NCBI RefSeq assembly: GCF_014279795.1 | Contig: NZ_CP047945.1 | Coordinates: 826,572-890,571, forward strand | Direction of reading: 5' to 3' | Source of the DNA: Synechococcus sp. PROS-7-1 | GTDB taxonomy: Bacteria > Cyanobacteriota > Cyanobacteriia > PCC-6307 > Cyanobiaceae | Length of the DNA: 64,000 nucleotides | Shown here: positions 5,769 to 64,000 of the stretch, one piece after another | How the letters are laid out: each line of letters starts with the position of its first letter | Numbering within the stretch: position 1 is the stretch's first letter | The notes under the pieces: model-generated | Told to the model about the DNA's origin: nothing | What the model saw: the letters and a program-made list of their open reading frames with translations, nothing else | Databases searched by the model: none | Position numbers and translations under genes: made by a program

Positions 5769-6845
5769 ATGGCTACCGCAATTCGCAGCGGTCGCACCGG
5801 CAGCTGGGAAAGCTTCTGTCAGTGGGTCACCGACACCAATAACCGCATTTATGTGGGTTGGTTCGGTGTGCTGATGATTCCCTGTCTGCTGGCTGCTACC
5901 ACCTGCTTCATCGTTGCTTTCATCGCAGCGCCCGCCGTCGACATCGACGGCATCCGTGAGCCCGTCGCCGGCTCCCTGATCTACGGAAACAACATCATTT
6001 CTGGTGCTGTTGTTCCTTCCTCGAACGCCATCGGCCTTCACTTCTATCCCATCTGGGAAGCTGCCTCCCTCGACGAGTGGCTGTACAACGGCGGTCCTTA
6101 CCAGCTGGTTGTCTTCCACTTCCTGATCGGCATCTCCGCCTACATGGGGCGCCAGTGGGAGCTCTCCTACCGCCTGGGCATGCGTCCCTGGATCTGCGTT
6201 GCTTACAGCGCTCCCCTGTCGGCTGCCTTCGCTGTGTTCCTGGTGTATCCCTTCGGTCAGGGTTCCTTCTCTGACGGCATGCCCCTGGGCATCTCCGGCA
6301 CCTTCAACTTCATGCTGGTGTTCCAGGCAGAGCACAACATCCTGATGCACCCCTTCCACATGATGGGCGTCGCAGGTGTGTTCGGTGGCTCCCTGTTCTC
6401 CGCCATGCACGGCTCCCTGGTGACCTCCTCACTGGTGCGTGAAACCACCGAGAGCGAGTCCCAGAACTACGGCTACAAGTTCGGCCAAGAGGAAGAGACC
6501 TACAACATCGTGGCTGCCCACGGTTACTTCGGTCGCCTGATCTTCCAATACGCCTCCTTCAATAACAGCCGCAGCCTTCACTTCTTCCTGGCTGCCTGGC
6601 CTGTGGTCGGCATCTGGTTCACCTCCATGGGCATCAGCACCATGGCGTTCAACCTGAACGGCTTCAATTTCAACCAGTCGGTTCTGGATGCTCAGGGCCG
6701 TGTCCTGAACACCTGGGCTGATGTGCTGAACCGCGCCAACCTCGGCATGGAAGTGATGCACGAGCGCAACGCTCACAACTTCCCCCTCGACCTGGCTGCG
6801 ACCGAGTCCACTCCTGTGGCTCTGCAAGCACCCACCATCGGCTGA
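5769..6845 (+). CDS. psbA: Photosystem II D1 protein, D1:1-type (low-light) isoform
   Basis: D1 is the photosystem II reaction-centre subunit that carries the Mn-cluster ligands and the QB plastoquinone site in the thylakoid membrane. The 358-residue sequence matches D1 end to end, including five membrane spans, [20 protein letters not shown], the QB-site region, and [15 protein letters not shown] at the C-terminus, whose tail is processed after Ala344. At the site equivalent to residue 130 it has Gln (YMGRQWE), the mark of the D1:1 form used under moderate light. The neighbouring stretch GISAYMG differs from the GIFCYMG of the second copy. The start is the ATG giving MATAIRSG. Confidence 0.98.
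6249..6562 (+). repeat. psbA homogenised block, copy 1
   Basis: This 314-bp stretch is base-for-base identical to 8679-8992 in the second psbA, including third codon positions, while flanking parts of the genes differ at many sites. This pattern indicates recent gene conversion. Confidence 0.92.
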
Positions 6846-8195: not shown

Positions 8196-9275
8196 ATGAC
8201 CACCACCATTCAGCAGCGCTCCGGCGCCAATGGCTGGCAGTCCTTCTGCGAGTGGGTCACCTCCACCAACAACCGCCTGTATGTGGGCTGGTTCGGTGTG
8301 CTGATGATCCCCACCCTGCTGGCTGCCACCACCTGCTTCATCGTTGCTTTCATCGCAGCGCCCCCCGTCGACATCGACGGCATCCGTGAGCCCGTCGCCG
8401 GCTCCCTGATCTACGGAAACAACATCATCTCTGGTGCTGTTGTTCCTTCCTCGAACGCCATCGGCCTTCACTTCTATCCCATCTGGGAAGCTGCCTCTCT
8501 CGACGAGTGGCTGTACAACGGCGGTCCTTACCAGCTGGTTGTCTTCCACTTCCTGATCGGCATCTTCTGCTACATGGGCCGCGAGTGGGAACTCTCCTAC
8601 CGCCTCGGCATGCGCCCCTGGATCTGCGTTGCTTACAGCGCACCTGTGGCTGCTGCCTCCGCCGTGTTCCTGGTGTACCCCTTCGGTCAGGGTTCCTTCT
8701 CTGACGGCATGCCCCTGGGCATCTCCGGCACCTTCAACTTCATGCTGGTGTTCCAGGCAGAGCACAACATCCTGATGCACCCCTTCCACATGATGGGCGT
8801 CGCAGGTGTGTTCGGTGGCTCCCTGTTCTCCGCCATGCACGGCTCCCTGGTGACCTCCTCACTGGTGCGTGAAACCACCGAGAGCGAGTCCCAGAACTAC
8901 GGCTACAAGTTCGGCCAAGAGGAAGAGACCTACAACATCGTGGCTGCCCACGGTTACTTCGGTCGCCTGATCTTCCAATACGCCTCCTTCAACAACAGCC
9001 GCAGCCTTCACTTCTTCCTGGCTGCCTGGCCTGTGGTCGGCATCTGGTTCACTGCCCTGGGCGTCAGCACCATGGCTTTCAACCTGAACGGTTTCAACTT
9101 CAACCAGTCCATCCTTGATGGTCAGGGCCGCGTCCTGAACACCTGGGCTGATGTGCTGAACCGCGCCAACCTCGGCATGGAAGTGATGCACGAGCGCAAC
9201 GCTCACAACTTCCCCCTCGACCTGGCAGCTGCTGAGTCCACTCCTGTGGCTCTGCAAGCACCCGCCATCGGCTGA
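8196..9275 (+). CDS. psbA: Photosystem II D1 protein, D1:2-type (high-light) isoform
   Basis: This second D1 has 359 residues and Glu at residue 130 (YMGREWE). That is the form which replaces D1:1 under high light in cyanobacteria, by stronger hydrogen bonding to the D1 pheophytin. All conserved D1 segments and the C-terminal processing region are present. It differs from the first copy mainly at the N-terminus ([10 protein letters not shown]), around 124-150 and at a few C-terminal sites; the middle is identical at DNA level. An 11-nt motif, CCCGTACTCAT (8187-8197), contains this ATG and also occurs at 5751-5761 upstream of the first psbA. Confidence 0.98.
8679..8992 (+). repeat. psbA homogenised block, copy 2
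   Basis: Identical over 314 bp to 6249-6562 in the first psbA (offset 2430 bp). Synonymous differences appear immediately outside the block. Confidence 0.92.
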
Positions 9276-9416: not shown

Positions 9417-9881
9417 ATGTGCGGGATTTGTGCGCTGCATCAGAACTCACCTCAGCTCGAACCCATGGAGATCTGGAGAAGTGAGCATTGGTTGCTGCGT
9501 CACCATCCCCATCCCAGTCCCCTCGCAGGTTGGTGTTTGCTGGATGTCCGGCGCCATTGCGGAGGACCCGTTGATTTCTCTGTTGCAGAAGCAGCGGACT
9601 GGGGCTTGATCGTGCAGCGCGCCTCGCGCCTGGTGAAGCACGTCAGCGGTTGTGATCGTGTGTACGCCATTGCCTTCGGGGAGGGAGCACGCCATCTGCA
9701 TCTGCACCTCATCCCTCGTTGCAATGGGATCCCCGAGACGGAGGCCTGGGCCGTTGCAGACCTCTACCGGGATGTGCAGCACAACTGCCGAGCAGCGGCA
9801 GCTGAAATCGAGGTTGAGGCCTGGATTCAAACGGCACGACAAAGGGCCCCTCGCCTGATGGACGAGGGGCCCGAGGGGTAA
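9417..9881 (+). CDS. HIT-like (histidine triad) protein
   Basis: The 154-residue protein carries a histidine-triad-like motif, RHLHLHLIPR, near residue 100. HIT proteins are nucleotide hydrolases or transferases, and the last His of the triad is the usual nucleophile. The N-terminus, MCGICALH, gives a CxxC pair of the sort that binds zinc with downstream His in some HIT proteins. I chose the ATG at 9417 rather than the TTG at 9378 because it places this pair at the N-terminus. Its last codons overlap a strong hairpin. Confidence 0.72.
   Translation: MCGICALHQNSPQLEPMEIWRSEHWLLRHHPHPSPLAGWCLLDVRRHCGGPVDFSVAEAADWGLIVQRASRLVKHVSGCDRVYAIAFGEGARHLHLHLIPRCNGIPETEAWAVADLYRDVQHNCRAAAAEIEVEAWIQTARQRAPRLMDEGPEG
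9844..9872. terminator. GC-rich hairpin inside the end of the HIT gene
   Basis: GGGCCCCTCG and CGAGGGGCCC pair perfectly around a 9-nt loop, in the last coding bases of the HIT gene and facing the end of katG at 9898. There is no clear T-run. It probably blocks read-through between the convergent genes. Confidence 0.55.
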
Positions 9882-9897
9882 GGGCCTGACGACTGCT

Positions 9898-12093
9898 TCA
9901 GCTGCGCAGATCGAAGCGGTCGAGCTCCATCACCTTCACCCAGGCTTTGACGAAGTCGGCCACAAAGCGGCTGCCGCCATCGTTCTGGGCGTACACCTCA
10001 ACAATGGCGCGAAGCTGGCTGTTGGATCCAAACACCAGGTCGGCGCGGCTCGCGCTCCAGCGTTCGGCACCGGTTGCGCTGTCGCGACCGATGTAGGCAT
10101 CCTGTGTCTCGCTGGTTGGCGTCCAGCGGGTTGTCATGTCCAGCAGGTTCACACAGAAATCGTTGCTAAGTACGCCAACGTTCTGGGTGAACACGCCTTG
10201 ACGGTTGCCGGCGGTGTTCGCTCCCAACACGCGCAGACCCGCCAGCAGCACGGTCATTTCAGGGGCGCTGAGCGTGAGCAGCTGGGCTTTGTCGATGAGC
10301 AACTCCTCGGCCCGCAGGGGAAGGCCGCTGCGCCGCCAGTTGCGGAATCCGTCGGCCAAGGGCTTGAGCACATTGAACGACGCGGTATCGGTTTGCTCCG
10401 GGCCCGCATCGCTGCGCCCAGGACGGAAGGGCACCACCACGGTGTGTCCGCCATCAGCGGCAGCCTTCTCCACGGCTGCACACCCTCCCAGCACGATCAA
10501 ATCAGCGATCGAGACCGACTTGCCATCGTTGGAGCTGCTGTTGAACTGAGACTGAATCGTCTCCAGCGCCGTGAGCACACCATTGAGTTGCTCGGGGTCG
10601 TTCACCTCCCAGGTGCGTTGGGGCAGCAGCCGGATGCGTCCGCCATTGGCGCCCCCTCGGCGATCGGATCCGCGGAACGTGGATGCTGAGCCCCAGGCTG
10701 TTGCCACGAGGGCAGAAATGCTTTGGCCACTGGCCAGGATCTGCTGCTTGAGGTTGCTGATTTCAGCCTCATCAATCAAGGGGTGGGTGACGGGCGGAAC
10801 GGGGTCCTGCCAGATCTGCACCTCCTCGGGAACATCCGGTCCGAGGTAAAGGGCGCGGGGGCCGAGATCGCGATGGGTGAGTTTGAACCAGGCCCGGGCA
10901 AACGCATCGGCGAACGCCTCCTGGTCGAGATGGAAGCGCCGGGCCACCGGCTCCATGATCGCGTCGTGCCTGAGGGACAGATCAGCGGTGGTCATGATCG
11001 GAGCGGATGACTTTCCGGCCACATGGGCATCGGGAATCATGTGCTCGGGCTTCACATCCTTGGCCGTCCACTGCCAAGCGCCTGCTGGGCTCTTGGTGAG
11101 CTCCCACTCGTAGGTGAACATCATCTGGAAATAGCCCTGATCCCATCGGGTGGGGTTCGGTTTCCAGGCGCCTTCGATGCCACTGGTGATGGTGTGCTCG
11201 CCTTTGCCCGATTCGTAGGTATTGCGCCATCCAAGGCCCTGCTCATGCAGAGCAGCACCTTCCGGTTCGGCCTCAAGGTTGCTGTCTGGGGCGGCTCCAT
11301 GGCACTTGCCGAAGGTGTGTCCCCCGGCCACAAGAGCCACGGTTTCCTCCACGGTCATGCCCATGCGCGCAAAGGTCTCACGCACGTCGCGTCCAGAGGC
11401 CACGGGATCCGGTTCACCGTGGGGACCTTCGGGATTCACGTAGATGAGCCCCATCTCCACAGCGGCCAGAGGCTGGTCAAGCTCTCCTTTGTCGTTGCGG
11501 CGCTCATCCTTGAGCCAGCCGGTTTCCTTTCCCCAGAACACATCCTCTTCCGGTTGCCAGATGTCCTCTCGGCCGCCGGCGAAGCCGAAGGTGCGGAAGC
11601 CCATGGATTCCAGGGCCACATTGCCCGAAAGGATGATCAGATCAGCCCAGGAGATGGCATTGCCGTACTTGCGCTTGATCGGCCACAGCAGGCGCCTGGC
11701 CTTGTCGAGGTTGGTGTTGTCAGGCCAGCTGTTGAGGGGGGCAAAGCGTTGATTGCCGTGGCCGGCACCGCCACGTCCATCCCCCGTGCGATAGGTGCCG
11801 GCGCTGTGCCAGGCCAGACGGATGAACAGTGCTCCGTAATGGCCCCAGTCGGCGGGCCACCAGTCTTGAGAGTCGGTCATCAGCGCCTGAAGGTCTGCCT
11901 TCAGGGCGCTGTAATCCAGTGCGGCGAAAGCCGACGGGTAATCGAATGCGTCACCGAGGGGATTGGAGGCCGGGTGATGCTGGTGCAGGATCCCGAGGTT
12001 GATCTGATTGGGCCACCAATCGCCGTTGCCTGTATTGCCTGCGGGTGTGACCGCACCGGTGTGGCCACTGAAGGGGCATTTCAGATCAGACAT
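9898..12093 (-). CDS. katG: Catalase-peroxidase
   Basis: KatG is a haem enzyme that removes hydrogen peroxide by catalase and peroxidase chemistry in the cytoplasm. The 731-residue length is typical. Visible features are the distal haem motif [11 protein letters not shown] with Trp and His, [21 protein letters not shown], the Tyr of [11 protein letters not shown] that forms the Met-Tyr-Trp adduct, [11 protein letters not shown] with the proximal His, and a second, haem-free C-terminal repeat from about residue 430. It stands alone between convergent HIT and upstream DUF1993; no OxyR-type regulator is adjacent. Not all picocyanobacteria keep katG, so its presence is ecologically informative. 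Confidence 0.97.
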
Positions 12094-12200
12094 TCGAGGC
12101 GAACAACAGGCTCTTTTGAGACCTTATTCATCGATTCTGTTCTGTGCCAATGATCCACAGCACATGGGAAGGGGCTAAAGCACCTGCAGGGCTGCTGAGC

Positions 12201-12731
12201 TCAGGAGCTGCTTAATTCCATCCCCAGAAAATCACGCTTGCCGATGTTGACGCCGTTGTGGCGAAGAATGGCGTAGGCCGTCGTGGTGTGGAAATACACG
12301 TTGGGCAGAAGGAAGTCGGTGAGGAACTCGAGGGCGTTGAAGGTGAGTTGGCCGCCACCGAAACTCTTGGGGATCGGCATGGTCACGGTGGTTTGTTCTT
12401 TGCCGATGAACGCTTCTGCAGGGAATTCCCCCAGTTGGGACAGGGTGGTGTCGATGCGGGCGATCAGTCCCTCAAAAGTGGGCGCATTGTCGGGAAGGGA
12501 TGACGGCTCTTCGCCAATGAGCCGTGCCGCTCCTCGTCGGGCGATGTCGGTGGCAGCTTGCACCTGTTGCTGAAGGTCGAACATGTCGGGGTACAGCCGG
12601 CTTGCGAGCAGCACGGATTCATCGATTCCCCTTGCTTCAAGATCCGCGGCCGCCAGGCGCAGAATGAGCTGAAGATTGGTGAGGATCCGTCTGAGCTGCC
12701 GGATGGCCAGGGTGTGCAGATCGGTGCTCAT
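12201..12731 (-). CDS. DUF1993 family protein
   Basis: The 176-residue soluble protein matches DUF1993: an N-terminal helix with LHTLAIRQLRRILTNLQLIL, then RLYPDMFDLQQQVQAATDIARRG around residue 45 and the C-terminal LPNVYFHTTTAYAILRHNGV. The family has a DinB-like helical bundle with no assigned function, often found near stress genes. The ATG at 12731 gives MSTDLHTL; longer upstream extensions overlap the kinase gene and look like noncoding sequence. Confidence 0.85.
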   Translation of the reverse strand: MSTDLHTLAIRQLRRILTNLQLILRLAAADLEARGIDESVLLASRLYPDMFDLQQQVQAATDIARRGAARLIGEEPSSLPDNAPTFEGLIARIDTTLSQLGEFPAEAFIGKEQTTVTMPIPKSFGGGQLTFNALEFLTDFLLPNVYFHTTTAYAILRHNGVNIGKRDFLGMELSSS

Positions 12732-12756
12732 GCACGGTGCTGAGGGAATCCCACTC

Positions 12757-13590
12757 CTAGCCATAGGGACCGAAACGGGTGGCGCAGGCAGCACCACAGC
12801 GCGCACCGAGCTGGACTGCATCAGCAACCTCCCATCCCGCGGCCAGGCCAGCAGTGACTCCTGCAGCAAAACTGTCGCCGCAGCCATAGGACTCGACCAT
12901 CGGCCCAGGAAGAGGCTCTGGTGCGAAGCGACCTCCAGGAATGAGGAGGCCACCCTCGGCACCTTCCGTGGCGATGCGCAACATGGGGGCAGGATCAGGG
13001 CTCCCCTCGGGCAGCTGTTCGCTGGGATCGAGGCCACTGCCGATCAAGGCATCCAGTGGAACCGATGCCTCCTGAAGCACCGGCAGACGGAGCCTTGGCG
13101 TGGCTGTCAGCACCCTGGCTTGTCGGGCAAGGCGCAGGCCAGCGGCATCGGTCGCTGACACAAACACGCCATCGCACTGCGCCAAGCGTTCCCAGCCGAG
13201 GGCGTCCTCTGCGCAGGGGGTGAGGCGTTCCCCGATCACGGTGATTGCCCGGTCGCCGCCAGGATCCATCAGGCTGATGCCACGCCGGCTCGGGGTGTCG
13301 CGCCAGGCGATCACAGGTTCTACCCCCAGTTCCCGTAGGCGTTGTTCACTGCGTTGTCCGATGGCGTCAGAGCCGAGAGCGGTAAAAAACAGCACCCTGC
13401 GCCCAGTGAGACGCGCCAGTTGAACAGCGACAACGGCTCCCGCACCGGCCGGTTCCTCGAGGGATCGGCAGGCACGGCTGATGCGGCCTGGCTGGGGCAG
13501 GCCATCCACTTCCAGAAAGGTGACCCATTCCTGATGACCGATCACAGCCAGGTTCAATGCAGACAGGTCTGGCAGGTCGCTCAAAGACAC
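12757..13590 (-). CDS. PfkB-family carbohydrate kinase
   Basis: PfkB kinases phosphorylate sugars, nucleosides or similar alcohols with ATP. The C-terminal signature is present as VESYGCGDSFAAGVTAG near residue 240, with the catalytic Asp in GCGDSF; Thr-Gly-Ala of the canonical DTxGAGD is replaced by Tyr-Gly-Cys. A Gly-rich segment, EPAGAGAVVAVQLARL, near residue 45 fits the substrate lid. I chose the GTG at 13590, 4 bp after the preceding stop; a start at 13641 would overlap that gene by 47 nt. The substrate is unknown. Confidence 0.8.
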   Translation of the reverse strand: MSLSDLPDLSALNLAVIGHQEWVTFLEVDGLPQPGRISRACRSLEEPAGAGAVVAVQLARLTGRRVLFFTALGSDAIGQRSEQRLRELGVEPVIAWRDTPSRRGISLMDPGGDRAITVIGERLTPCAEDALGWERLAQCDGVFVSATDAAGLRLARQARVLTATPRLRLPVLQEASVPLDALIGSGLDPSEQLPEGSPDPAPMLRIATEGAEGGLLIPGGRFAPEPLPGPMVESYGCGDSFAAGVTAGLAAGWEVADAVQLGARCGAACATRFGPYG

Positions 13591-13594
13591 AGGA

Positions 13595-14170
13595 TTAAGG
13601 GGTGGGCAGAAGGGATTGGGCCGCATCACGCAAGCGCACATTGATCTTGCCGCCCACGGAGTTCACTTTGACTCCGCCGATGATGTTGAGCGTCTCCCCG
13701 TCGGGGGTGCTCACCTGCAGTGTTTCGCCATCCACCGCGCGAATCGAGACGGGATTCGAGACCTCTGAGACGACAATGGGGGTGTCCACATTCACATCAC
13801 TGTTCACTTCCAGCGGCGTGCTGGTGTCCACCTGAATCGGCCGGCTTAAGGACACTCCCTCCGGGACTTTGACGCTGCCGCTGACTGGAAGCGCCTTGAT
13901 GGCCTCGACGGACAGCGCACCCTCACTTTTGACGCGCACTGGAACCTTGAACTGCTCCACGCTCACGCCGCCGACGAGCTTCACCGGCAGGGGCTGGCTG
14001 AGAGGCAGACCGATGGGGATTGGCTTTCTCAGAATCTGGACGGCAGCGATGGCAACGGCCCAGGCCGCCAGGACGACGGCCAGGGGCCAGCGACTGGCCA
14101 TGAGCAAGTCGAACCAGCGGGGATCGTTCGCTTGCGTTCGCGTGTCGCCGCGGTCGGTCATGGCTGCCAT
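13595..14170 (-). CDS. Single-pass membrane protein with beta-rich exported domain
   Basis: The 191-residue protein has a basic N-terminus, one hydrophobic span (about 28-46) and a long Val/Pro/Ser-rich, beta-rich tail in which short V-containing strands repeat (VKVPEGV, VEVNSD, VNVDTPIVVSEV). This suggests a periplasmic repetitive fold. No known domain was recognised. It precedes the PfkB kinase by 4 bp and is likely co-transcribed. A second in-frame ATG at 14161 is possible. Confidence 0.65.
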   Translation of the reverse strand: MAAMTDRGDTRTQANDPRWFDLLMASRWPLAVVLAAWAVAIAAVQILRKPIPIGLPLSQPLPVKLVGGVSVEQFKVPVRVKSEGALSVEAIKALPVSGSVKVPEGVSLSRPIQVDTSTPLEVNSDVNVDTPIVVSEVSNPVSIRAVDGETLQVSTPDGETLNIIGGVKVNSVGGKINVRLRDAAQSLLPTP

Positions 14171-14240
14171 TTAACGAAATCAACCCGGTTGTACCGGGTT
14201 CTGGGAGCGGCAGCATGACTTTGAACGCCTGTTCAGGCAA

Positions 14241-14510
14241 TCAGAGTTCGTATTCTTCCTCGAATTGGCTCAGCAACCCCTTGTAGAGGGCAAGGGTTCC
14301 TTCACTTTCTTCGGTCACTCCCTCGGTTTCGTAGAGCTGGGCCAGATGGGCGCTGGCCACGTGCACGCGGGAAAACGCTTCCGCGTACTCGTTCTGGATG
14401 TCTTCTTCCCGGATATCCCGAATCATCGCGGAGATGAACTCCACCTTTTTCTGGGCGGCTTTGATGTCAGCCTCCATCTCCTTGCTGAGCTTGCGGCGCT
14501 TGCGAGGCAT
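14241..14510 (-). CDS. Small conserved-type hypothetical protein
   Basis: The protein has 89 residues, beginning MPRKRRKL, and is highly charged and helical throughout, with a basic N-terminus and an acidic C-terminus ending EEEYEL. There is no membrane segment. A longer version from 14546 would add 12 residues; the ATG at 14510 puts the basic cluster at the start. The helix-rich pattern suggests a small bundle or coiled coil; the family is not recognised. Confidence 0.6.
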   Translation of the reverse strand: MPRKRRKLSKEMEADIKAAQKKVEFISAMIRDIREEDIQNEYAEAFSRVHVASAHLAQLYETEGVTEESEGTLALYKGLLSQFEEEYEL

Positions 14511-54223: not shown

Positions 54224-56017
54224 TCAGGGCAGGGCCAGGGCTGTTCCTTCCCGCCGAGGGTCGGCGGCTCCATGCCAGCGATCGCCAATGCGTTGCAGCA
54301 GGCCAATGCCGCTGCCCAGGGTCTGGGAGCGCAACTTGCGGCCCGGTAAATCAAGTTGATTGGGATCGATGGGCCAGGGGAGCGGCGGTTCCTTCTCGAT
54401 CACAAGACTGTCTCCCTGGGGAGATAGCAAAGGCAGGCCGACCGATCGCTTTGGAGGTTCCGCCCATTGCAGTGCGGCCAGCAGCACCCGGCTGATGGTG
54501 TGCGGGATCCGCTTTCCCCCCGGGCTGCCCAGGGCCAGGACCGGTTGGTGGTCGTTGAAGACGATCGTTGGCGCCATCGACGACACCGGCCTGCGCCCTG
54601 GCCGGCGTCGGTTGGCCACGGGGAGGCCCCCGACGACGGGTCGCCAGTCGAAGTCGGTGAGTTGGTTGTTCATCACCATGCCCTCCACCAGATTGCGGCT
54701 GCCGAAGACGGTTTCCACTGTTGTGGTGTAGCTGGCGATGTTGCCTTCACCGTCCACGATCGTGACCTGGGAGGTGCCCAGTTCGGTGCCGGGCCCGGAG
54801 CGACCGAAGGGGAACTGCTTCATCCCTGGGGGCAGACCAGGCTGCGGCAAGCGTTCGGGTGAGGCCTGCATGGCCTGGGTACGGGCCTGGACGTAACTCG
54901 GATCCAGCAGTCCCTGGATGGGAACGGTTCCATCAATCGGATCGTGCACCCAATAGAGGCGATCGGCATCGGCCCAGGATTCCGCCAGGGCCAGATGGCG
55001 CCAGCTTTGTGGGAGGGATGGATCGTTGAAGCCGCCGGTCGCCTCGAGCAGGGCCAGGGTCTGCAGCACCGCCAGCCCGCCGCTGCTCGGCGGGGGCACC
55101 GTGCAGACGCGGTGCTTCATCAGCATCCGGCAAAGGGGGGCTCGGCGCTCTACGGCATAGGAGGCAAGATCCGTGGCACTCCAGCCTTTGAAGTTGGGGG
55201 ACTGAACCTTCAGGGCGTTCACCCCGTGCTGAATCCGTTGGGCCAGCGGGCCTTCGTAAAAGGCGCGCCCCCCCTCCTGGGCCAGGGTCTCCAGGGTGTG
55301 GGCCAGAGCCTGGTTGCGGAACAGACGGCCGGCTGGCAACGGTGTTCCGCCAGGCAGATACAGCTGTTGGAAGGCCGGGTTGTGGGTTGCGCCGAGGCGC
55401 TGGGCCAGGGCTACGGAGCGGCGCAGCCGCGGGCTGGGAAGGAAGCCTTCCCGGGCCAGACGGATGGCGGGCTCAAGGGTGCTGGACCAGGGGCGTTGCC
55501 CCAACTGTTGATGGGCTTCCCAGAGCAGGGCCACGGTGCCAGGCACGCCGATCGCATCCGGATTGCGGGTGGCTGCCCGATAGGAGAGCGGTTCTCCTGA
55601 CGGCTGAAGCAGGTCGTCGCTGCGGCTGCGTTCCGGTGCGGTTTCACGGCCATCGAACACCTCCAGCGCCTGACGACGGGAATCCCAGTGCAGCAGGAAA
55701 CCTCCACCTCCGAGCCCGGAACTCTGCGGTTCTGCAACGGCCAGCACCGCCTGCGCTGCAACCAGGGCATCCACGGCATGGCCACCGCTGGCAAGAACGC
55801 CCAGAGCGGCTTTGCTGGCCAGGGGGTTGGCGGTGACGACCACGGCCGAGCCGGCAGCCGTGGAGATGCTTTTTTTGCGTGTGTCCGCCTGCTCGGGATC
55901 ATCGCGACTCACCGGAGCTGCGCTCACGGGGCTGAGCGAGAGCAACAGCAGCAGGGCGCCAATCATCAAGGTGGGGCGGGGATCGGGACAAGCTCTGGCG
56001 GAGTCTGGCGCCTGCAC
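54224..56017 (-). CDS. ggt: Gamma-glutamyltransferase
   Basis: GGT hydrolyses or transfers the gamma-glutamyl group of glutathione, usually in the periplasm. The 597-residue precursor has an N-terminal signal region (LMIGALLLLLSLSPVSAAP) and signature parts VVVTANPLASKAALGVLASGG, SSGLGGGGFLLHWD, DGRETAP, PGTVALLWEAHQQLG and VPPPSSGGLAVL. It is cleaved into two subunits at a Thr. Here that site is likely in LGTSQVTIVDGEGN (usual form H-T-T/S-H), and GSPGGKRIPHTI completes the active site. The start is GTG 56017 or ATG 55966. Confidence 0.94.
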   Translation of the reverse strand: MQAPDSARACPDPRPTLMIGALLLLLSLSPVSAAPVSRDDPEQADTRKKSISTAAGSAVVVTANPLASKAALGVLASGGHAVDALVAAQAVLAVAEPQSSGLGGGGFLLHWDSRRQALEVFDGRETAPERSRSDDLLQPSGEPLSYRAATRNPDAIGVPGTVALLWEAHQQLGQRPWSSTLEPAIRLAREGFLPSPRLRRSVALAQRLGATHNPAFQQLYLPGGTPLPAGRLFRNQALAHTLETLAQEGGRAFYEGPLAQRIQHGVNALKVQSPNFKGWSATDLASYAVERRAPLCRMLMKHRVCTVPPPSSGGLAVLQTLALLEATGGFNDPSLPQSWRHLALAESWADADRLYWVHDPIDGTVPIQGLLDPSYVQARTQAMQASPERLPQPGLPPGMKQFPFGRSGPGTELGTSQVTIVDGEGNIASYTTTVETVFGSRNLVEGMVMNNQLTDFDWRPVVGGLPVANRRRPGRRPVSSMAPTIVFNDHQPVLALGSPGGKRIPHTISRVLLAALQWAEPPKRSVGLPLLSPQGDSLVIEKEPPLPWPIDPNQLDLPGRKLRSQTLGSGIGLLQRIGDRWHGAADPRREGTALALP

Positions 56018-56057: not shown

Positions 56058-57689
56058 ATGACAGATGCAGGCCCATCGACTCCCAACCCGTCGCATGTGG
56101 TGGTGATCGGCGCGGGGTGGGCCGGCTGGGGTGCCACCAAGGCTCTCTGTGAAGCCGGGGTGCGGGTGACGCTGCTGGATGGGATGGCGGATCCCACGGG
56201 CAGCACACCCCTCACCACCACCAGAGGCAAACCTTTTGAAGCCGGCACTCGCGGGTTCTGGAAGGACTACCCCAACATCAATGCCCTCACCGCTGAGCTG
56301 GGGCTCAGCAATGTGTTCACGGAGTTCACCACCAGCGCCTTCTGGTCACCCGATGGACTGGAGGCCACAGCTCCGGTGTTCGGCGATGCGCTGCGTTGGC
56401 CCAGTCCCATCGGGCAGGTGCTGGCCACCACGACCAATTTCAAACGCCTTCCCGTGGCTGATCGCCTCAGCATTGCCGGGCTCCTCTACGCGATGCTCGA
56501 TCTCAACCGCAGCGACGCGGTGTTCGAGCGCTACGACAACCTCGATGCGCTGACGCTGTTCCGAAGCCTCGGAATCAGTGAGCGGATGATCAACGATTTC
56601 CTCCGTCCCACGCTTCTGGTGGGCTTGTTCAAGCCGCCGGAGGACTTGTCGGCGGCGGTGACGATGGAGCTTCTTTACTACTACTCCTTTGCCCATCAGG
56701 ATTCCTTCGATGTGCGCTGGATCCGCTCCAGCACCATTGCCGAACAGCTGATTGCCCCCTTGGCGCAGCAGCTGATCGATCGCCATGGTCTGCAGGTGCT
56801 CGGCGGCACGCTGGCCACAGGTTTGAACCTCCATCCAGATACCAAGGCCGTTGCGTCGGTGCAAACCCGTGCTGTGGCGACGGGTGAAAACGCCATGATC
56901 GACGGAGTGGATGCGGTGGTGCTCACGGTGGGTGCCAAGGGGATGGGCGCACTGATGGCACAGTCGCCAGCCTGTGCCGCTGCAGCCCCTGAACTGGTGG
57001 ATGCCGGCAGTCTCGGGGCCATTGACGTGGTGTCGGTGCGGTTGTGGCTGGACGCCTACGTGGAGGTTGCGGATCCCGCCAATGTGTTCTCCCGATTCGA
57101 GGCCTTGCAGGGGGCTGGTGGCACCTTCTTCATGCTCGATCAGCTGCAGCAGCAGACGGAAGCTGCGCTGTGGGGGGGAGAGCCACCGCGGGGATCAGTG
57201 ATCGCCAGTGACTTCTACAACGCCACAGCGATTGCGGCTCTGAGCGATGAAGCGATCGTGGCGTTGTTGATGCGTGAGCTCCTGCCGGTGGCCAATCCCG
57301 CCTTTCACACCGCCAATGTGCTGGAGGCTGAGGTGCGCCGCTACCCGGGGTCGGTGGCTTGGTTCTCTCCAGGGAGCTTCCGGAAGCGGCCGCCGTTGGA
57401 GACGGCGATTCCTTCACTGGTCTGCGCCGGCGACTGGGTACGAATGGGGGCGCGGGAATTTGGTGCCAAAGGGCTTTGCCAGGAGCGGGCCTATGTGTGT
57501 GGGCTGGAAGCTGCCAATTCCTTGCTGCGACGGGGGGTGGTGCGAAGCGCCGATCCTGGCGGCAGGGCTCAGCACCGGGTGATTGCGATCCGGCCCGATG
57601 AACCCCAGGTGCTGCTGGGGCGCTCACTCAATGCCCAGGTGATGAACACGGCGGACGCCTTGGGCTTGCGTTGGCCCTGGTTGGCATAA
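56058..57689 (+). CDS. Carotenoid-type FAD-dependent oxidoreductase
   Basis: The 543-residue protein opens HVVVIGAGWAGWGATKALCE, an FAD Rossmann motif, with KPFEAGTRGFWKDYPNINAL soon after. This resembles plant and cyanobacterial phytoene-desaturase-like or carotenoid-isomerase-like proteins. The C-terminal part has LVCAGDWVRMGAREFGAKGLCQE and a helix. It is divergent from ggt with 40 bp between, and is the first gene of the same-strand run with the tyrosinase, 65 bp upstream. The substrate is unknown. Confidence 0.85.
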   Translation: MTDAGPSTPNPSHVVVIGAGWAGWGATKALCEAGVRVTLLDGMADPTGSTPLTTTRGKPFEAGTRGFWKDYPNINALTAELGLSNVFTEFTTSAFWSPDGLEATAPVFGDALRWPSPIGQVLATTTNFKRLPVADRLSIAGLLYAMLDLNRSDAVFERYDNLDALTLFRSLGISERMINDFLRPTLLVGLFKPPEDLSAAVTMELLYYYSFAHQDSFDVRWIRSSTIAEQLIAPLAQQLIDRHGLQVLGGTLATGLNLHPDTKAVASVQTRAVATGENAMIDGVDAVVLTVGAKGMGALMAQSPACAAAAPELVDAGSLGAIDVVSVRLWLDAYVEVADPANVFSRFEALQGAGGTFFMLDQLQQQTEAALWGGEPPRGSVIASDFYNATAIAALSDEAIVALLMRELLPVANPAFHTANVLEAEVRRYPGSVAWFSPGSFRKRPPLETAIPSLVCAGDWVRMGAREFGAKGLCQERAYVCGLEAANSLLRRGVVRSADPGGRAQHRVIAIRPDEPQVLLGRSLNAQVMNTADALGLRWPWLA

Positions 57690-57754
57690 CGAGGCTTGAA
57701 GCCATGGCTGAGCCAACAAGCGATGGCTAGTTTTTAGAAAGTTTCAGTTGAGCT

Positions 57755-60265
57755 GTGAATTTCGCGCAACTTCTGTCCAGGTTTGCAGAGCCTGAAAGCC
57801 GCAGTCTTGAAACTTCGAATTCAGAACGGGTGCGTCACAATGTTGAGACGCCAGATGGAGCAAAGGCGCTTGCTCTGTTTGAGAAAGCTGTCGGGTTGAT
57901 GAAGGAGAAGTCGGCTCTGAATCCAGGTGACCCACTGGGGTGGACCTACCAGGCTGGGATTCATGGTCTCTGGAATCTGGATGTTGAACAACCAGAGGCA
58001 TTTAATGTTCAACAAAGCGAGAGATTTGTCGATTTTGCTGTAGAGAATGGATTTGATACCCGCGAAAATATGTTGAATGGAGATACGGTTCTTAATAACT
58101 GCACTCACTTCGCTGGTTTTTGGAATGGCTCTCGGAATTCGATTGTGCAAAGAACGACAGTCAGTGACGGAGCTCCTGCTAATTTCATGGCCTGGCATCG
58201 CTTGTATCTTCAGTATTTTGAGGAAATCGCCAGGGAAAATCTGCGGCTGAGCGGTGATCCTGATGCGGAAACATGGGCTCTTCCCTACTGGGCTTACTTA
58301 AACGAAGAGCAGACAGTGATGCCCAAGCTTCTTCGTGATCCAGAGTCGTCGTTGTATACCCCATACCGCAATCCCGGCTTCAATGCAGGGACGTCAATCA
58401 ATGATCTTGGCGTTGGAGACATACAACCTGCATCCTGGTCTAGCACGGCTTTAAAGGGTTTGGGTGCAACTGGTTACTTGTCAATGGGAACACGGATTGA
58501 ATATACCCCACACAATCAATTTCATCGGTTGTCTGGGTTGGATGGAGGCCTTTTCCCTGATGGAGATGGTCTGATGTTGCCCCCAGGGTCAGCCGCTTTC
58601 GATCCTGTTTTCTGGATCCATCATTCATTTATTGACAAAATCTGGAGCGCCTATAATAAGAAAGACAATGCTTTTTATGCATTTGAGTATGAATTTGACC
58701 AAACACCCTGGAACTATGCTTTTCTGACGCCTTCGCGAGATGGCAGTCTTCAAAAGGACGTGGTGTCGTCTTGGGGTGATGACTCGCCGAATGTCATCAG
58801 TAAAATCTACAATCCCGATTATTCGTACGACTATTTCGGAGCGCTTTCTAATCCTGTTGATGAAGCGGGTCCCAACAAAGTTCTGTCCATCCTTCAGTCT
58901 CCAGCGTTCCGGCCGATCGTCTCTGATATTGATTGGGGTATCGACGCCGAGGCGCGGTCAGCTGTTGTTCAAGACGGTCGTGAGCTGAGTTATTTTCAGT
59001 CGGTTATTCCCCTGACGATTGACGGACGCCAGCTGACCTACGAAGCCTATAGAGGTTTCGCTGGGGAAGATGCACCCTTTAATCTTGTCGCCAATATCAA
59101 TTTCAAGTTGCCCTCTCCGCCAGCCTTTGCAAGATTTGTGTTGACGACTAAAGATATTGTGGAGGATGTGTCGTTCGAGGAGATTACATTCTTCGATATC
59201 ATTAGACGAAACCGTGGTCTGTTCGTTCAGGATATGCCGATGGGCTCCATGTCGATGCCAATGGCTAAAACTGCAACGATGGATTTTGGATATAGTGATT
59301 ATTCTTTCTTTGGTAATCCTAATATCGACACTGATGATCTCGTTGCTCCTGGTGATGAGATGGTCCTGCTGATGCTTTCCGATTCTGCTGACACTTCTGT
59401 GCAGTCTTTGTCGTTGGGGTTAACGGAAAATCTCAACAAAGCCTCAACCCGGGATTCGGATTTTGATTCTGCAGCCTATTTCTCTCAGTTCCCCGAGTTG
59501 CTGTTGAACCGTGAGGCAACCGAAGATCCAGAAGGGTATTACAACGCGAATGACAAGCCTCGCGGTGTGGTGGCTCCCGAAGTTAATTTCCGCGCCGCCG
59601 CTCTTGGCATGGCTTATCTCGCGGAAAATCCCGATTTGATCGAGCAATTGGAGAGTTCTTCTCCCTATGTGGCCGTTGCTGATTATCTCGATCAAGGCCT
59701 TAAGCAAGGGCGCTCACTCGGTGATGGGGCTTTGCGTTCTTCTCGGAACTATTTTCGCCGCGATCGTGAGTCGGATGCCGTGATTCTTGATCTCACATTG
59801 TTGCCTTTGGATGGTGAAGCAGTGGTGGATGTGGTGACAGGGCGTGAAGCTGATTTCGACTCGACGCTTGGTTTTTATCGCGTTGTTGATGATCTTGGCA
59901 CGGTCGTGGTTGATGGAGTTCGTTATCAACCGGGTCACGCGGACTATGCGCGCATGGCAACCAGTAACGGCAATCGATTCGATCCGCTCACTGGTTTCAG
60001 TGCCAGTCAAGAGCGTGCAGAGCGCAGCACGGGGATTGGGTTGACTGCGGATACAGGCCGACTCGCCCCCTTTGCTGTTGTGAACGATCAAACATTGTTC
60101 ACTTTCGCGGAGGCCAATGCAGACGGGCTTAACCATTTTCGTGTTCTCGCGCCCAATACACTCGGCTTTGAAGATTTCTTTGCTGGCGGTGATACCGACT
60201 TTGATGATGCGTTGGCATCCTTCCGTTTCACATTGCCAGGCGCTGATGAATTGCTGTTGGCATGA
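57755..60265 (+). CDS. Tyrosinase/polyphenol-oxidase-like copper protein fused to DUF4114
   Basis: The 836-residue protein has a type-3 copper domain (about 55-330). CuA ligands: His70 (YQAGIH), His118 in NCTHFAGF, His148 in MAWHRLY. CuB: His253 and His257 in TPHNQFHR, and His289/290 in FWIHHSFIDKIW. Cys116-Thr-His118 is the Cys-x-His thioether pair of fungal tyrosinases. After a Met-rich segment (MPMGSMSMPM, 494-503) and a variable region, a DUF4114 domain follows (about 675-830), with GFEDFFAGGDTDFDDA. No signal peptide is seen. The gene is AT-richer than its neighbours; bases 58621-58680 have only 19 G/C of 60. Start is GTG. Confidence 0.85.
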   Translation: MNFAQLLSRFAEPESRSLETSNSERVRHNVETPDGAKALALFEKAVGLMKEKSALNPGDPLGWTYQAGIHGLWNLDVEQPEAFNVQQSERFVDFAVENGFDTRENMLNGDTVLNNCTHFAGFWNGSRNSIVQRTTVSDGAPANFMAWHRLYLQYFEEIARENLRLSGDPDAETWALPYWAYLNEEQTVMPKLLRDPESSLYTPYRNPGFNAGTSINDLGVGDIQPASWSSTALKGLGATGYLSMGTRIEYTPHNQFHRLSGLDGGLFPDGDGLMLPPGSAAFDPVFWIHHSFIDKIWSAYNKKDNAFYAFEYEFDQTPWNYAFLTPSRDGSLQKDVVSSWGDDSPNVISKIYNPDYSYDYFGALSNPVDEAGPNKVLSILQSPAFRPIVSDIDWGIDAEARSAVVQDGRELSYFQSVIPLTIDGRQLTYEAYRGFAGEDAPFNLVANINFKLPSPPAFARFVLTTKDIVEDVSFEEITFFDIIRRNRGLFVQDMPMGSMSMPMAKTATMDFGYSDYSFFGNPNIDTDDLVAPGDEMVLLMLSDSADTSVQSLSLGLTENLNKASTRDSDFDSAAYFSQFPELLLNREATEDPEGYYNANDKPRGVVAPEVNFRAAALGMAYLAENPDLIEQLESSSPYVAVADYLDQGLKQGRSLGDGALRSSRNYFRRDRESDAVILDLTLLPLDGEAVVDVVTGREADFDSTLGFYRVVDDLGTVVVDGVRYQPGHADYARMATSNGNRFDPLTGFSASQERAERSTGIGLTADTGRLAPFAVVNDQTLFTFAEANADGLNHFRVLAPNTLGFEDFFAGGDTDFDDALASFRFTLPGADELLLA

Positions 60266-61236
60266 AGCGGATCCTGATCACCGGGGCTAGTTCCGGCATT
60301 GGCTTGGACGCCGCCCGCCGGTTGGTCTCCAGTGGTCATCAACTCACGCTCCTCTGCCGCAGCTCTGAGCGCGGCCAGCAGACGCACGCGCAATTGGTCG
60401 CAGCCGGTGCAACGCCCGGTCAGGTGACCTGCCTCGTTGCCGATCTGGCCGACCTGCGCAGTGTGCAGAGTGCCTGCGATCAGCTGCTGGATCGGGGTGA
60501 AGCCTTCGACGCTCTGGTGCTGAATGCCGGGCAGCAACGGGCGGGGGTCTCAGCGCCGGTGTGGTCGTCTCAGGGCATCGAAATCACCTTTGCTGTGAAT
60601 CAGCTGGCCCACCAGCTGATCGCCACGGACTTGCTGCCGTTGTTGCGGGCTGGATCGCAGCCGCGGGTGGTGATCACCGCCTCTGATGTGCACAACCCTG
60701 CCACTGGCGGCGGGCGCGTGGGACAACCGGCGGATCTGGGTGACTTGGCAGGACTGCGGGCCGGTGCCGGTTTTGTGATGCTGGATGGCAACGCCCGTTT
60801 TGATGGCGACAAGGCTTACAAAGACAGCAAACTCTGCAATGTGTTGCTGGGGCTTGAACTCAACCGCCAGCTCGCGGGCGCCCTGCCTGTGCTCACCTGG
60901 AGCCCGGGGTTGGTGATCCAGCGCAGCCGTGAGGGTTTCTTCCGCTACAACCGCCAGAGCAATCCTGTGGGGATGGCGTTGTTCGCGTTGGTGGCGCGCG
61001 ATCTGCTGCGGGTGACGGAATCGGTTGCAACGGCTGGCGGTTTGCTGGCGGATCTGATCACAGACTCTGCCTACGCTTCCCCTGGATTCAGCTACTGGAG
61101 CAACCGGTTGGTGCGCCCCGGCATGCATCGTTTTTCTGCCGTTCAGACCAGTGCTGCGGCAGCCGATCTGGCCAAGGCTGGTGAGCTGTGGCGTCTCTCG
61201 GAGGCGTTGATCCGCACGGCGTTGGCGCCACACTGA
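60262..61236 (+). CDS. SDR related to light-dependent protochlorophyllide reductase
   Basis: The 324-residue SDR has the motif RILITGASSGIGLDAARRLV, LVLNAGQQRAG, and the active site FDGDKAYKDSKLCNVLLGLEL. YKDSKLCN is the hallmark of the POR/retinol-dehydrogenase branch, and SPGLVIQRSREGFF follows. It lacks the Cys-rich features that would prove POR, so the substrate could be a different pigment or phenolic. ATG 60262 overlaps the tyrosinase stop by 4 bp, so the two proteins are co-translated. Confidence 0.88.
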   Translation: MKRILITGASSGIGLDAARRLVSSGHQLTLLCRSSERGQQTHAQLVAAGATPGQVTCLVADLADLRSVQSACDQLLDRGEAFDALVLNAGQQRAGVSAPVWSSQGIEITFAVNQLAHQLIATDLLPLLRAGSQPRVVITASDVHNPATGGGRVGQPADLGDLAGLRAGAGFVMLDGNARFDGDKAYKDSKLCNVLLGLELNRQLAGALPVLTWSPGLVIQRSREGFFRYNRQSNPVGMALFALVARDLLRVTESVATAGGLLADLITDSAYASPGFSYWSNRLVRPGMHRFSAVQTSAAAADLAKAGELWRLSEALIRTALAPH

Positions 61237-61257
61237 AGCAAACATGTCATTGCGCTG

Positions 61258-62946
61258 ATGCCTCCTTCGGTTGTCACTTACGTGTTGGATCGGCTTGCGG
61301 ATCTCGGCATTGGTCATGTGTTCGGTGTGCCTGGGGACTATTCCTTCCCTTTGAATGACGCTGTGGAAGTGCATCCGCGGCTGCAGTGGGTGCCATCAGC
61401 CAATGAATTGAATGCGGCCTACGCCGCCGATGGTTACGCCCGTCGCCGTGGTGCCGCAATCGTCTGCACCACCTACGGCGTGGGTGAACTCAGTGCCCTC
61501 AATGGCGTGATGGGCTCCATGGCTGAGCGACTGCCCGTGTTTCACCTGGTGGGAACCCCGAGTGTGCGCATCGTGCGTCAGGGACTGATCTGTCATCACA
61601 CCCTTGGTGACACGCGCTACGACCGCTTCGAGGCGATCTCGGCTGCAGCCGGTTGTGTGAGTGCGCGGCTAACTCCGGAGAACGTGGTGGTGGAGTTGGA
61701 GCGGGTGATCGACAAAGCCCTGGAGGACTCCAGGCCGGCCTATCTCACCGTGCCCATGGACCTGGCTCTGATGCCGATCACCGGTACGCCGATTCAGGGC
61801 ACACCCATCGGCAGCATCGATCAACACGCCAGCGTGGCGGTGGAGCTGGACGCCGTGCTCGATCTGGTGATGGAGCGTCTCGCTGAGGCCACCCGTCCGC
61901 TGGTGATGCCCACGGTCACCCTCAAGCGTTTCGGACTGGTGGAGACGTTTGCAACGTTCCTCGAGGTTTCGGGCTTGGCCTATGCCACCACGCCGATGGA
62001 CAAGGCCCTGCTCAGTGAAGGGCATCCCGCTTTTCTGGGGATGTACAACGGTGCGCGTTCCACCCCTGCCGCTCTGCAGGGTGTGGTGGAAGGGGCTGAT
62101 GTCCTTCTTGATGTGGGCGGCCTGGTGATGGAGGACCTCAACACCGGTCTCTGGAGTGGGCATCTGGACAGCCGCCGGGTGATCTCTCTGCATGCCGACT
62201 GGGTGCAGGCCGGGGATCAGGTGTTCACCAGCGTGAGCCTCAGCGAAGTGCTGGCTGGGCTGATCAAGCGCTTTAAGGCCTCGGATGCCAAACCGAGTCA
62301 GTGGGGGGAGCAGCGGCCGGTGCAGCCCGAGCCCCTGATGCCTCTCGCCGGTGAGGGGGATCAACCCACGGCATCGGCCAATGTTTATCCGCGCCTGCAG
62401 CGGTTCCTGCGGCCCACGGATCTGTTGATGTCAGACACCGGCACCTCTCTGCTCAAGCTCAATGCCATGCGTCTGCCGGATGGGGTGGCCATCGAAACGC
62501 AGACTCTCTGGGGATCGATCGGCTGGGCAACGCCTGCCGCCCTGGGGTGTGCCCTGGCCGATGCCGAGCGTCGGGTGGTGCTGGTCACCGGTGATGGGGC
62601 GCACCAACTCACGGTGCAGGAGATCGGGGTGATGGGCTTCACCGGGGTGAAGCCGGTGGTGATCGTGCTCAACAACGGTCTCTATGGGGTGGAGGCTCTG
62701 CTCAGCGAAACCGGACATGCCTACAACGATCTGCCTCCCTGGCGTTATGCCCAGCTTCCCGAGGCCTTCGGTTGCCAGGGATGGTGGTGCGGGCAGGCCT
62801 CAACCGTGGCGGAGCTGGAGCAGGCGTTGGCGGCGATCAATGCTCACGACGGTGCGGCTTATCTCGAGGTGAGCATTCCAGCGGAAGAAAGCCAGCCTCT
62901 TCCGGAGGCGATGATCGAAACCCTGCACCAAACAGCGACGCCCTAG
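61258..62946 (+). CDS. ThDP-dependent 2-oxoacid decarboxylase
   Basis: The 562-residue protein is of the pyruvate/indolepyruvate decarboxylase type. The N-terminal PYR domain has GHVFGVPGDYSFPLN and the catalytic Glu in ANELNAAYAADGYAR near residue 52. A central domain follows, then the PP domain with the ThDP/Mg site GDGAHQLTVQEIGVMGF and NNGLYGVEALL. His113-His114 (ICHHTLGD) matches the active-site His pair of PDC. It converts a 2-oxoacid to an aldehyde. It starts 21 bp after the SDR gene. Confidence 0.93.
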   Translation: MPPSVVTYVLDRLADLGIGHVFGVPGDYSFPLNDAVEVHPRLQWVPSANELNAAYAADGYARRRGAAIVCTTYGVGELSALNGVMGSMAERLPVFHLVGTPSVRIVRQGLICHHTLGDTRYDRFEAISAAAGCVSARLTPENVVVELERVIDKALEDSRPAYLTVPMDLALMPITGTPIQGTPIGSIDQHASVAVELDAVLDLVMERLAEATRPLVMPTVTLKRFGLVETFATFLEVSGLAYATTPMDKALLSEGHPAFLGMYNGARSTPAALQGVVEGADVLLDVGGLVMEDLNTGLWSGHLDSRRVISLHADWVQAGDQVFTSVSLSEVLAGLIKRFKASDAKPSQWGEQRPVQPEPLMPLAGEGDQPTASANVYPRLQRFLRPTDLLMSDTGTSLLKLNAMRLPDGVAIETQTLWGSIGWATPAALGCALADAERRVVLVTGDGAHQLTVQEIGVMGFTGVKPVVIVLNNGLYGVEALLSETGHAYNDLPPWRYAQLPEAFGCQGWWCGQASTVAELEQALAAINAHDGAAYLEVSIPAEESQPLPEAMIETLHQTATP

Positions 62947-62947
62947 G

Positions 62948-64000
62948 TCAAAGATCAATCGACGTGACCGTGAAGATGCCGTCGTTGCGATCGTGGTCAT
63001 CCCCGCCGCCGATCTGATCCTCAAAGCCGAAGCTGCTCTTGCTGATCAGATTGAAATGGCGGTAGTCACGGGCATTGGCGTTGTCGTAAGCCGTGAACAT
63101 CTGTGCATTGCCGGTCATCACGATCGGGGCATAGAGCTGGCCAGCCGTCAGCTCGATGGTTCCCTCACGGGTGGCATCTCTGTCGGCCACGATCGGCGTA
63201 TCCGCCTCAAGCCGCTGGCTCCAGGCTTCCTTGAGGTAACCGCGATCACCTGGTGAAAGTCCGTTGATGGTGCCAGTGATGTCGTCGATGGCATAGAAGA
63301 AGAGTTGATTGTCGTAGTCAGCGTTACGGGAGTAGCTGTAGTTCACCGTTGCTACTTCGCCATCGAGAGCGTCGGGCAGGATGGTGAGATCGATCAGGGC
63401 TCCCACCACTTCGCTGCTGTAGGGCGACGGTGTGTCCAGAGGACTTGTGGAACCGAAACTGGGGTCGCTGCTCTTGACCTGAGCTTCCGCTGCGCTGCTG
63501 AGTAGATCCCAGGTGTGGATGCGGTTCAGGCCCTGACGCTCGACGGCTGGCGGTGCGTAGACATCGGAGGACTTTGGGTTGGCCAGGATCGATTTAGCAC
63601 CATCGGAGATGTCGCTGGTGGGCCAATAAAACCGGGCCATGACCTGGAAGGCGCTGGCTGCTTCTAAATCGGAGGATCCTGATCCGGTCACCAGCGGAGT
63701 GGGTAGCCAGTTCTGGAGATTGCTTTGCGGGGCCAGGTTGGACAAGCTCAGATTGATCGAACCATCGCTTTCGGTTTGCAGCGTGATCTCATCACTGCTG
63801 ATGCCTTTCTGCTGGTTGGATCCGAGCTGAGCGACGGGGTTGATCCAACCGAAGGAGAGTGTGCTCCCTCTCGGGCCTGAAAGTTGAATCGCCTCACCCG
63901 GTGACCCCTGGCCGCCGATGGCGATGCCGTTGCTCCCGTAATCGGGTTGGTACTCGGAGGCCAGGGTGAGCAGGAGTTCGTCATCTTCATCAGTTTCGGT
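62948..64000 (-). CDS. DUF4114-domain protein, C-terminal part only
   Basis: The frame stays open from 62948 to the window edge, encoding the last 350 residues of a larger protein; its start is outside. The upstream part is Asp/Glu and Gly/Ser-rich (TETDEDDELLL, GGQGSPGEAIQLSG), typical of secreted repetitive proteins. The C-terminus is a DUF4114 domain: LIDLTILPDALDGEVATVNY, DNQLFFYAIDD, and FGFEDQIGGGDDHDRNDG. This resembles the tail of the tyrosinase. A TTG at 63745 could falsely suggest a 265-residue protein. It is convergent with the decarboxylase, 1 bp apart. Confidence 0.85.
   Translation of the reverse strand, partial: TETDEDDELLLTLASEYQPDYGSNGIAIGGQGSPGEAIQLSGPRGSTLSFGWINPVAQLGSNQQKGISSDEITLQTESDGSINLSLSNLAPQSNLQNWLPTPLVTGSGSSDLEAASAFQVMARFYWPTSDISDGAKSILANPKSSDVYAPPAVERQGLNRIHTWDLLSSAAEAQVKSSDPSFGSTSPLDTPSPYSSEVVGALIDLTILPDALDGEVATVNYSYSRNADYDNQLFFYAIDDITGTINGLSPGDRGYLKEAWSQRLEADTPIVADRDATREGTIELTAGQLYAPIVMTGNAQMFTAYDNANARDYRHFNLISKSSFGFEDQIGGGDDHDRNDGIFTVTSIDL

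Follow-up and report, generated by a model that had tools for sequence, protein, structure and literature searches.

Does a compact run of four genes in Synechococcus sp. PROS-7-1 encode a single pathway, or have genes with separate tasks come to lie side by side? The window, by which we mean the whole 64,000-nucleotide stretch analyzed here, comes from a closed genome of 2.57 Mb that belongs to the Synechococcus group, and a first-pass annotation had seen in it a cluster whose products could oxidize a phenol, decarboxylate an aromatic 2-oxoacid, and reduce the aldehyde or ring. The four open reading frames are indeed present, all on the forward strand: an FAD oxidase gene (56058-57689; 543 aa; PF01593), which opens the conserved unit; a tyrosinase gene (57755-60265; 836 aa, GTG start; PF00264); a POR-like SDR gene (60262-61236; 324 aa; adh_short, LPOR-like); and a 2-oxoacid decarboxylase gene (61258-62946; 562 aa; a TPP enzyme). 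The tight packing of the last three is also real, with a 4-bp overlap (ATGA) between tyrosinase and SDR followed by a 21-bp gap to the decarboxylase; 65 bp separate the FAD oxidase from the tyrosinase. The shared strand and the overlap would allow translational coupling of tyrosinase and SDR. Because all of the proteins score under the equivalog cut-offs (Pfam, NCBIfam), the specific enzyme names used here denote family resemblances.

The interval 56058-62946 gives the gene positions correctly but not the limits of the unit, which reaches further on both sides. On the left is a gamma-glutamyltransferase gene (54224-56017, reverse strand), divergent from the FAD gene and a recurrent neighbor of it. 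On the right, convergent with the decarboxylase gene, is the 3' part of a gene for a DUF1254/DUF1214 protein that ends in a DUF4114-like module (62948-64000, reverse strand, running past the window). The 65-bp gap between FAD oxidase and tyrosinase contained no sigma-70-like promoter for the tyrosinase, counts being at chance level; its weak terminator-like hairpin (57711-57728) gave a signal not above chance, and an Rfam scan of the window returned zero matches.

The relatives of this genome show how the four genes came together. We searched 399 genomes of the order for FAD oxidase and decarboxylase orthologues, and the three nearest (G095, G065, and G083) share 90-96% protein identity with the former and 91-97% with the latter. 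In all three, tblastn finds FAD oxidase, SDR, and decarboxylase contiguous and in order, with the gamma-glutamyltransferase gene present and the tyrosinase missing: the distance from FAD oxidase to decarboxylase is 1,013 bp, just the size of the SDR, and only ~10 bp lie between FAD stop and SDR start. No tyrosinase was found anywhere in these three genomes. Alignments of the window to its relatives by blastn break cleanly at 57683-57694 and 60246-60256, and junction alignments with the three empty sites show that a flanking near-repeat bounds the extra DNA: TTGGCATAA on the left (57681-57689, forward strand, holding the FAD stop codon) and TTGGCATGA on the right (60257-60265, forward strand, holding the SDR start as well as the tyrosinase stop). 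The empty sites themselves carry two near-copies of TGGTTGGCATGA. These breaks define the tyrosinase as an insertion of ~2.56 kb net in the FAD/SDR junction, with a leader that occupies 57690-57754 on the forward strand. A second segment, covering the convergent DUF1254/DUF1214 gene (~62943-65808 by blastn blocks, of which 62943-64000 lies in the window), is missing from G065 and G083, and at this position G095 encodes another DUF1254/DUF1214 protein.

Base composition also sets the tyrosinase apart, with a GC content of 49.3% (GC3 48%) against 63-64% (GC3 73-75%) for the three flanking genes. From the low GC, transfer of this gene had been proposed at the outset, and that proposal gains from the lack of the insertion in the three closest genomes and from the scattered relatives of the gene at unrelated sites; horizontal acquisition is thus supported. 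Foreign in base composition, the gene most likely is a mobile one that interrupts an old operon.

Those scattered relatives are few. Searches of the 399 genomes of the order and of 367 genomes of the phylum gave four full-length homologues: one in G123 (38% identity), two copies in G045, a genome of another genus (37% and 34%), and one in the Synechococcus genome AG-679-A04 (71%), which shares with G402 an identical contig carrying the gene. Low GC marks the gene in all of its hosts (49%, 48%, 50%, and 44%). The G123 copy sits at an orphan site adjoining a probable IleRS gene (N terminus, by our own reading), and the AG-679-A04 copy is at an unrelated site where none of the four window neighbors is present. 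The check proposed for the pathway, conserved co-occurrence of the four families, was run and went against it: none of the four homologues has an SDR or a decarboxylase beside it, of the three other genomes with full-length homologues, two lack the decarboxylase, and the nearest relatives keep the other three genes without a tyrosinase. Viral or phage carriage of the tyrosinase was sought and not found, plasmids gave only distant tyrosinase domains (<30% identity among the matches listed), and a literature search for tyrosinase in marine Synechococcus or picocyanobacteria returned no relevant report.

Two tyrosinase loci deserve further mention. In G045 (L101), one tyrosinase gene (9487-11694) lies 205 bp upstream of a same-strand gene for a tyrosine-decarboxylase-like PLP enzyme with EF-hands (11900-14266); both have a GC content of 47-50% against ~65% for most neighbors, and they may form a dopamine/tyramine-type unit. 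G127 (L110, 9492-11021) encodes a tyrosinase-domain protein of a different type, 509 aa long with a DUF7868 domain, which does not belong to the large type.

What, then, is the operon that was interrupted? By sequence, its first product falls in the phytoene desaturase / HpnE (amine oxidase) superfamily of FAD-dependent oxidases (PF01593, 52 bits). It shares the FAD-binding N terminus and the overall family with these enzymes but falls far below every equivalog cut-off (HpnE, 82 bits; phytoene desaturase, 58 bits) and forms a family of its own, present in many Synechococcus genomes, with orthologues in 76 of the 399 genomes of the order. The SDR resembles light-dependent protochlorophyllide reductase (LPOR), which is its closest relative among solved structures (6l1h, E 3.6e-34), and it keeps the Tyr and Lys of the AYKDSK motif. 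It differs from LPOR in scoring 144.7 bits against a cut-off of 331.35 (TIGR01289) and in having Leu for the active-site cysteine of the YPGC motif, and a true LPOR (443 bits) is encoded elsewhere in the same genome. The FAD oxidase and SDR genes are adjacent, in either order, at 14 of 30 FAD loci of other genomes (13 of 29, plus AG-679-A04), mostly without a decarboxylase, and in a sister group the SDR start directly overlaps the FAD stop. An intact FAD oxidase gene adjoins a tyrosinase at none of these 30 loci.

The decarboxylase has the three ThDP-enzyme domains (PF02776, PF00205, and PF02775) with their catalytic residues, and it aligns over its full length with 8zk6 (E 8e-100). The HH, Glu, and GDG...NN motifs of indolepyruvate, phenylpyruvate, and pyruvate decarboxylases are all kept, which places it, as a prediction, among the ThDP 2-oxoacid decarboxylases of the indolepyruvate/pyruvate decarboxylase type, whereas its score against the indolepyruvate decarboxylase model (TIGR03393) is 421.5 bits for a cut-off of 946. 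Of 269 good genomes, 28 have it, the majority away from this locus. An Ehrlich-type pairing with an Fe-alcohol dehydrogenase, whose gene adjoins that of the decarboxylase in G065 and G083 and lies no more than ~7 kb away in G095 and G042, was considered and rejected, as no other decarboxylase locus seen has this gene nearby.

Gamma-glutamyltransferase is a frequent neighbor in the FAD/SDR region, where DoxX, cupin, ABM-domain, and DUF4114-tailed proteins also recur. The DUF1254/DUF1214 protein with its DUF4114-like tail is a recurrent partner of the FAD-SDR/decarboxylase region, adjoining the decarboxylase in the window and the FAD-SDR pair in G123 and G126 (L113, 2-2296). G120 has a second, truncated FAD oxidase of 258 residues near an SDR and a decarboxylase (L104, 6241-7002) as well as an intact FAD-SDR pair elsewhere; the truncated locus is a partial duplicate.

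The tyrosinase itself belongs to the type-3 copper tyrosinase / polyphenol oxidase family (PF00264, 68.5 bits against a cut-off of 22.6). All six copper histidines (His 70, 118, 148, 253, 257, and 290) are kept in the CuA/CuB motifs WHRLYL, PHNxxH, and FWxHH and are invariant among the four homologues. The gene is under purifying selection (dN/dS ~0.13 against AG-679-A04, with dS near saturation), and this together with the conserved ligands makes a working type-3 copper protein likely. It departs from the family in its length of 836 aa and, by our own reading of the alignment, in a long stretch inserted between CuA histidines two and three. The N-terminal copper domain is followed by a middle region, a repeat-like part (~570-660), and a DUF4114-like module (~672-826), in place of which plant-type DWL/KFDV domains have been reported for the tyrosinases of Gloeocapsa and other bacteria (PMC4707469); the window protein has none. 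An AlphaFold2 model from four sequences was unusable (mean pLDDT 33). The C-terminal ~155 residues match proteins in 66 of the 399 genomes, in most of them giant open reading frames of up to 8311 codons whose products are probably exported, and the module is also common to the tyrosinase and the neighbor protein at 62948. No Sec signal is evident to the eye at the N terminus. With module sharing as our only guide, we suggest that the tyrosinase is probably exported by a C-terminal route, perhaps of type I. If so, and if the FAD oxidase, SDR, and decarboxylase are cytoplasmic, as we presume, the enzymes would have no common compartment, which argues against one pathway.

We therefore favor, as the probable explanation, an exported phenol oxidase with an accessory role that sits within a resident FAD-SDR(-decarboxylase) operon, the two working on separate substrates. 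The resident operon would consist of FAD oxidase, POR-like SDR, and 2-oxoacid decarboxylase, the last perhaps a later or optional addition, and a single-gene cassette with the large tyrosinase would have entered the FAD/SDR junction. Exported through its C-terminal module, the tyrosinase would most likely oxidize phenols, at the cell surface or beyond it, to o-quinones. The FAD oxidase and the SDR, for which no export signal is seen, would be paired in the cytoplasm on a separate substrate, perhaps an isoprenoid or pigment-like one.

The history of the junction admits a second reading, compatible with this explanation of function, to which we give somewhat less than an even chance: the tyrosinase could be an old operon member, present in the stem of the clade and lost in the three relatives, whose duplicated TGGTTGGCATGA could be the footprint of that loss. 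Part of the case for it comes from AG-679-A04. Upstream of the tyrosinase there, a decayed stretch aligns with the leader and with ~90 bp at the 3' end of the FAD gene; the part inside the FAD gene has a local score of 41, whereas dinucleotide shuffling, repeated 2000 times, never gave more than 31. This part resembles FAD tails from the window's clade (36-46) more closely than it does the intact FAD gene found in AG-679-A04 itself (23). The FAD-tyrosinase junction is thus older than one strain and not a one-strain accident. Divergence from AG-679-A04 is also alike for the two genes (71% for the tyrosinase, 74% for FAD orthologues), the near-copies persist at the empty sites, and the direct FAD/SDR overlap in that sister group fits as well. 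On the other hand, several losses would be needed against one gain, the motifs are short, and GC is still deviant in both carriers. We read the relic as a trace of an FAD-tail and tyrosinase block that may have been transferred from a genome in which the tyrosinase already followed the FAD gene, and since this neighborhood has existed in two lineages or more, there might be a reason for its retention. Some 1.4 kb upstream of the AG-679-A04 tyrosinase, a fragment of ~96 bp (L114, 8541-8650) matches the 3' end of psbA-like genes, including two such open reading frames in the window (matched at 6712-6807 and 9142-9237; the psbA identity is our own reading); given this fragment, the site is a mosaic insertion site.

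A bolder proposal, that large, exported tyrosinases of a rare picocyanobacterial family travel between genomic sites as a cassette with an FAD tail and make extracellular quinone or melanin-like material, we consider unlikely; if it were true, dopamine-type polymers would be possible in G045, where the tyrosine-decarboxylase-like gene lies downstream of one copy. Quite improbable, too, is an exported copper-binding or oxygen-carrying (hemocyanin-like) protein that is no longer a phenol oxidase or is decaying. Mollusc hemocyanins are the best matches among solved structures, and the insertion in CuA sets the protein apart from ordinary tyrosinases, but hemocyanin and tyrosinase have this domain in common, so that the ranking of matches cannot decide function, and decay is excluded by the intact frame and the low dN/dS. 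We regard as very doubtful the original idea of one pathway, in which an aromatic 2-oxoacid is decarboxylated, a phenol oxidized by the tyrosinase, and the product reduced or oxidized by the SDR and FAD enzymes: close same-strand packing, a decarboxylase nearest to indole/phenylpyruvate decarboxylases, and the FAD 3' relic beside another tyrosinase speak for it, but the other three genes stand on their own in the nearest genomes, two of three other genomes with this type of tyrosinase lack the decarboxylase, and the exoprotein-type module probably puts the tyrosinase in another compartment.

What looks, from its compactness, like a pathway operon has turned out to hold a single-gene insertion, made visible by the empty sites in close relatives. 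The analysis also brings to attention a conserved pair of FAD oxidase and POR-like SDR in Synechococcus, and a family of large picocyanobacterial tyrosinases that is apparently undescribed, since we found no report of such enzymes in this group. It is in this rare exported-type tyrosinase family and in the FAD-SDR pair that the remaining interest of the locus lies.
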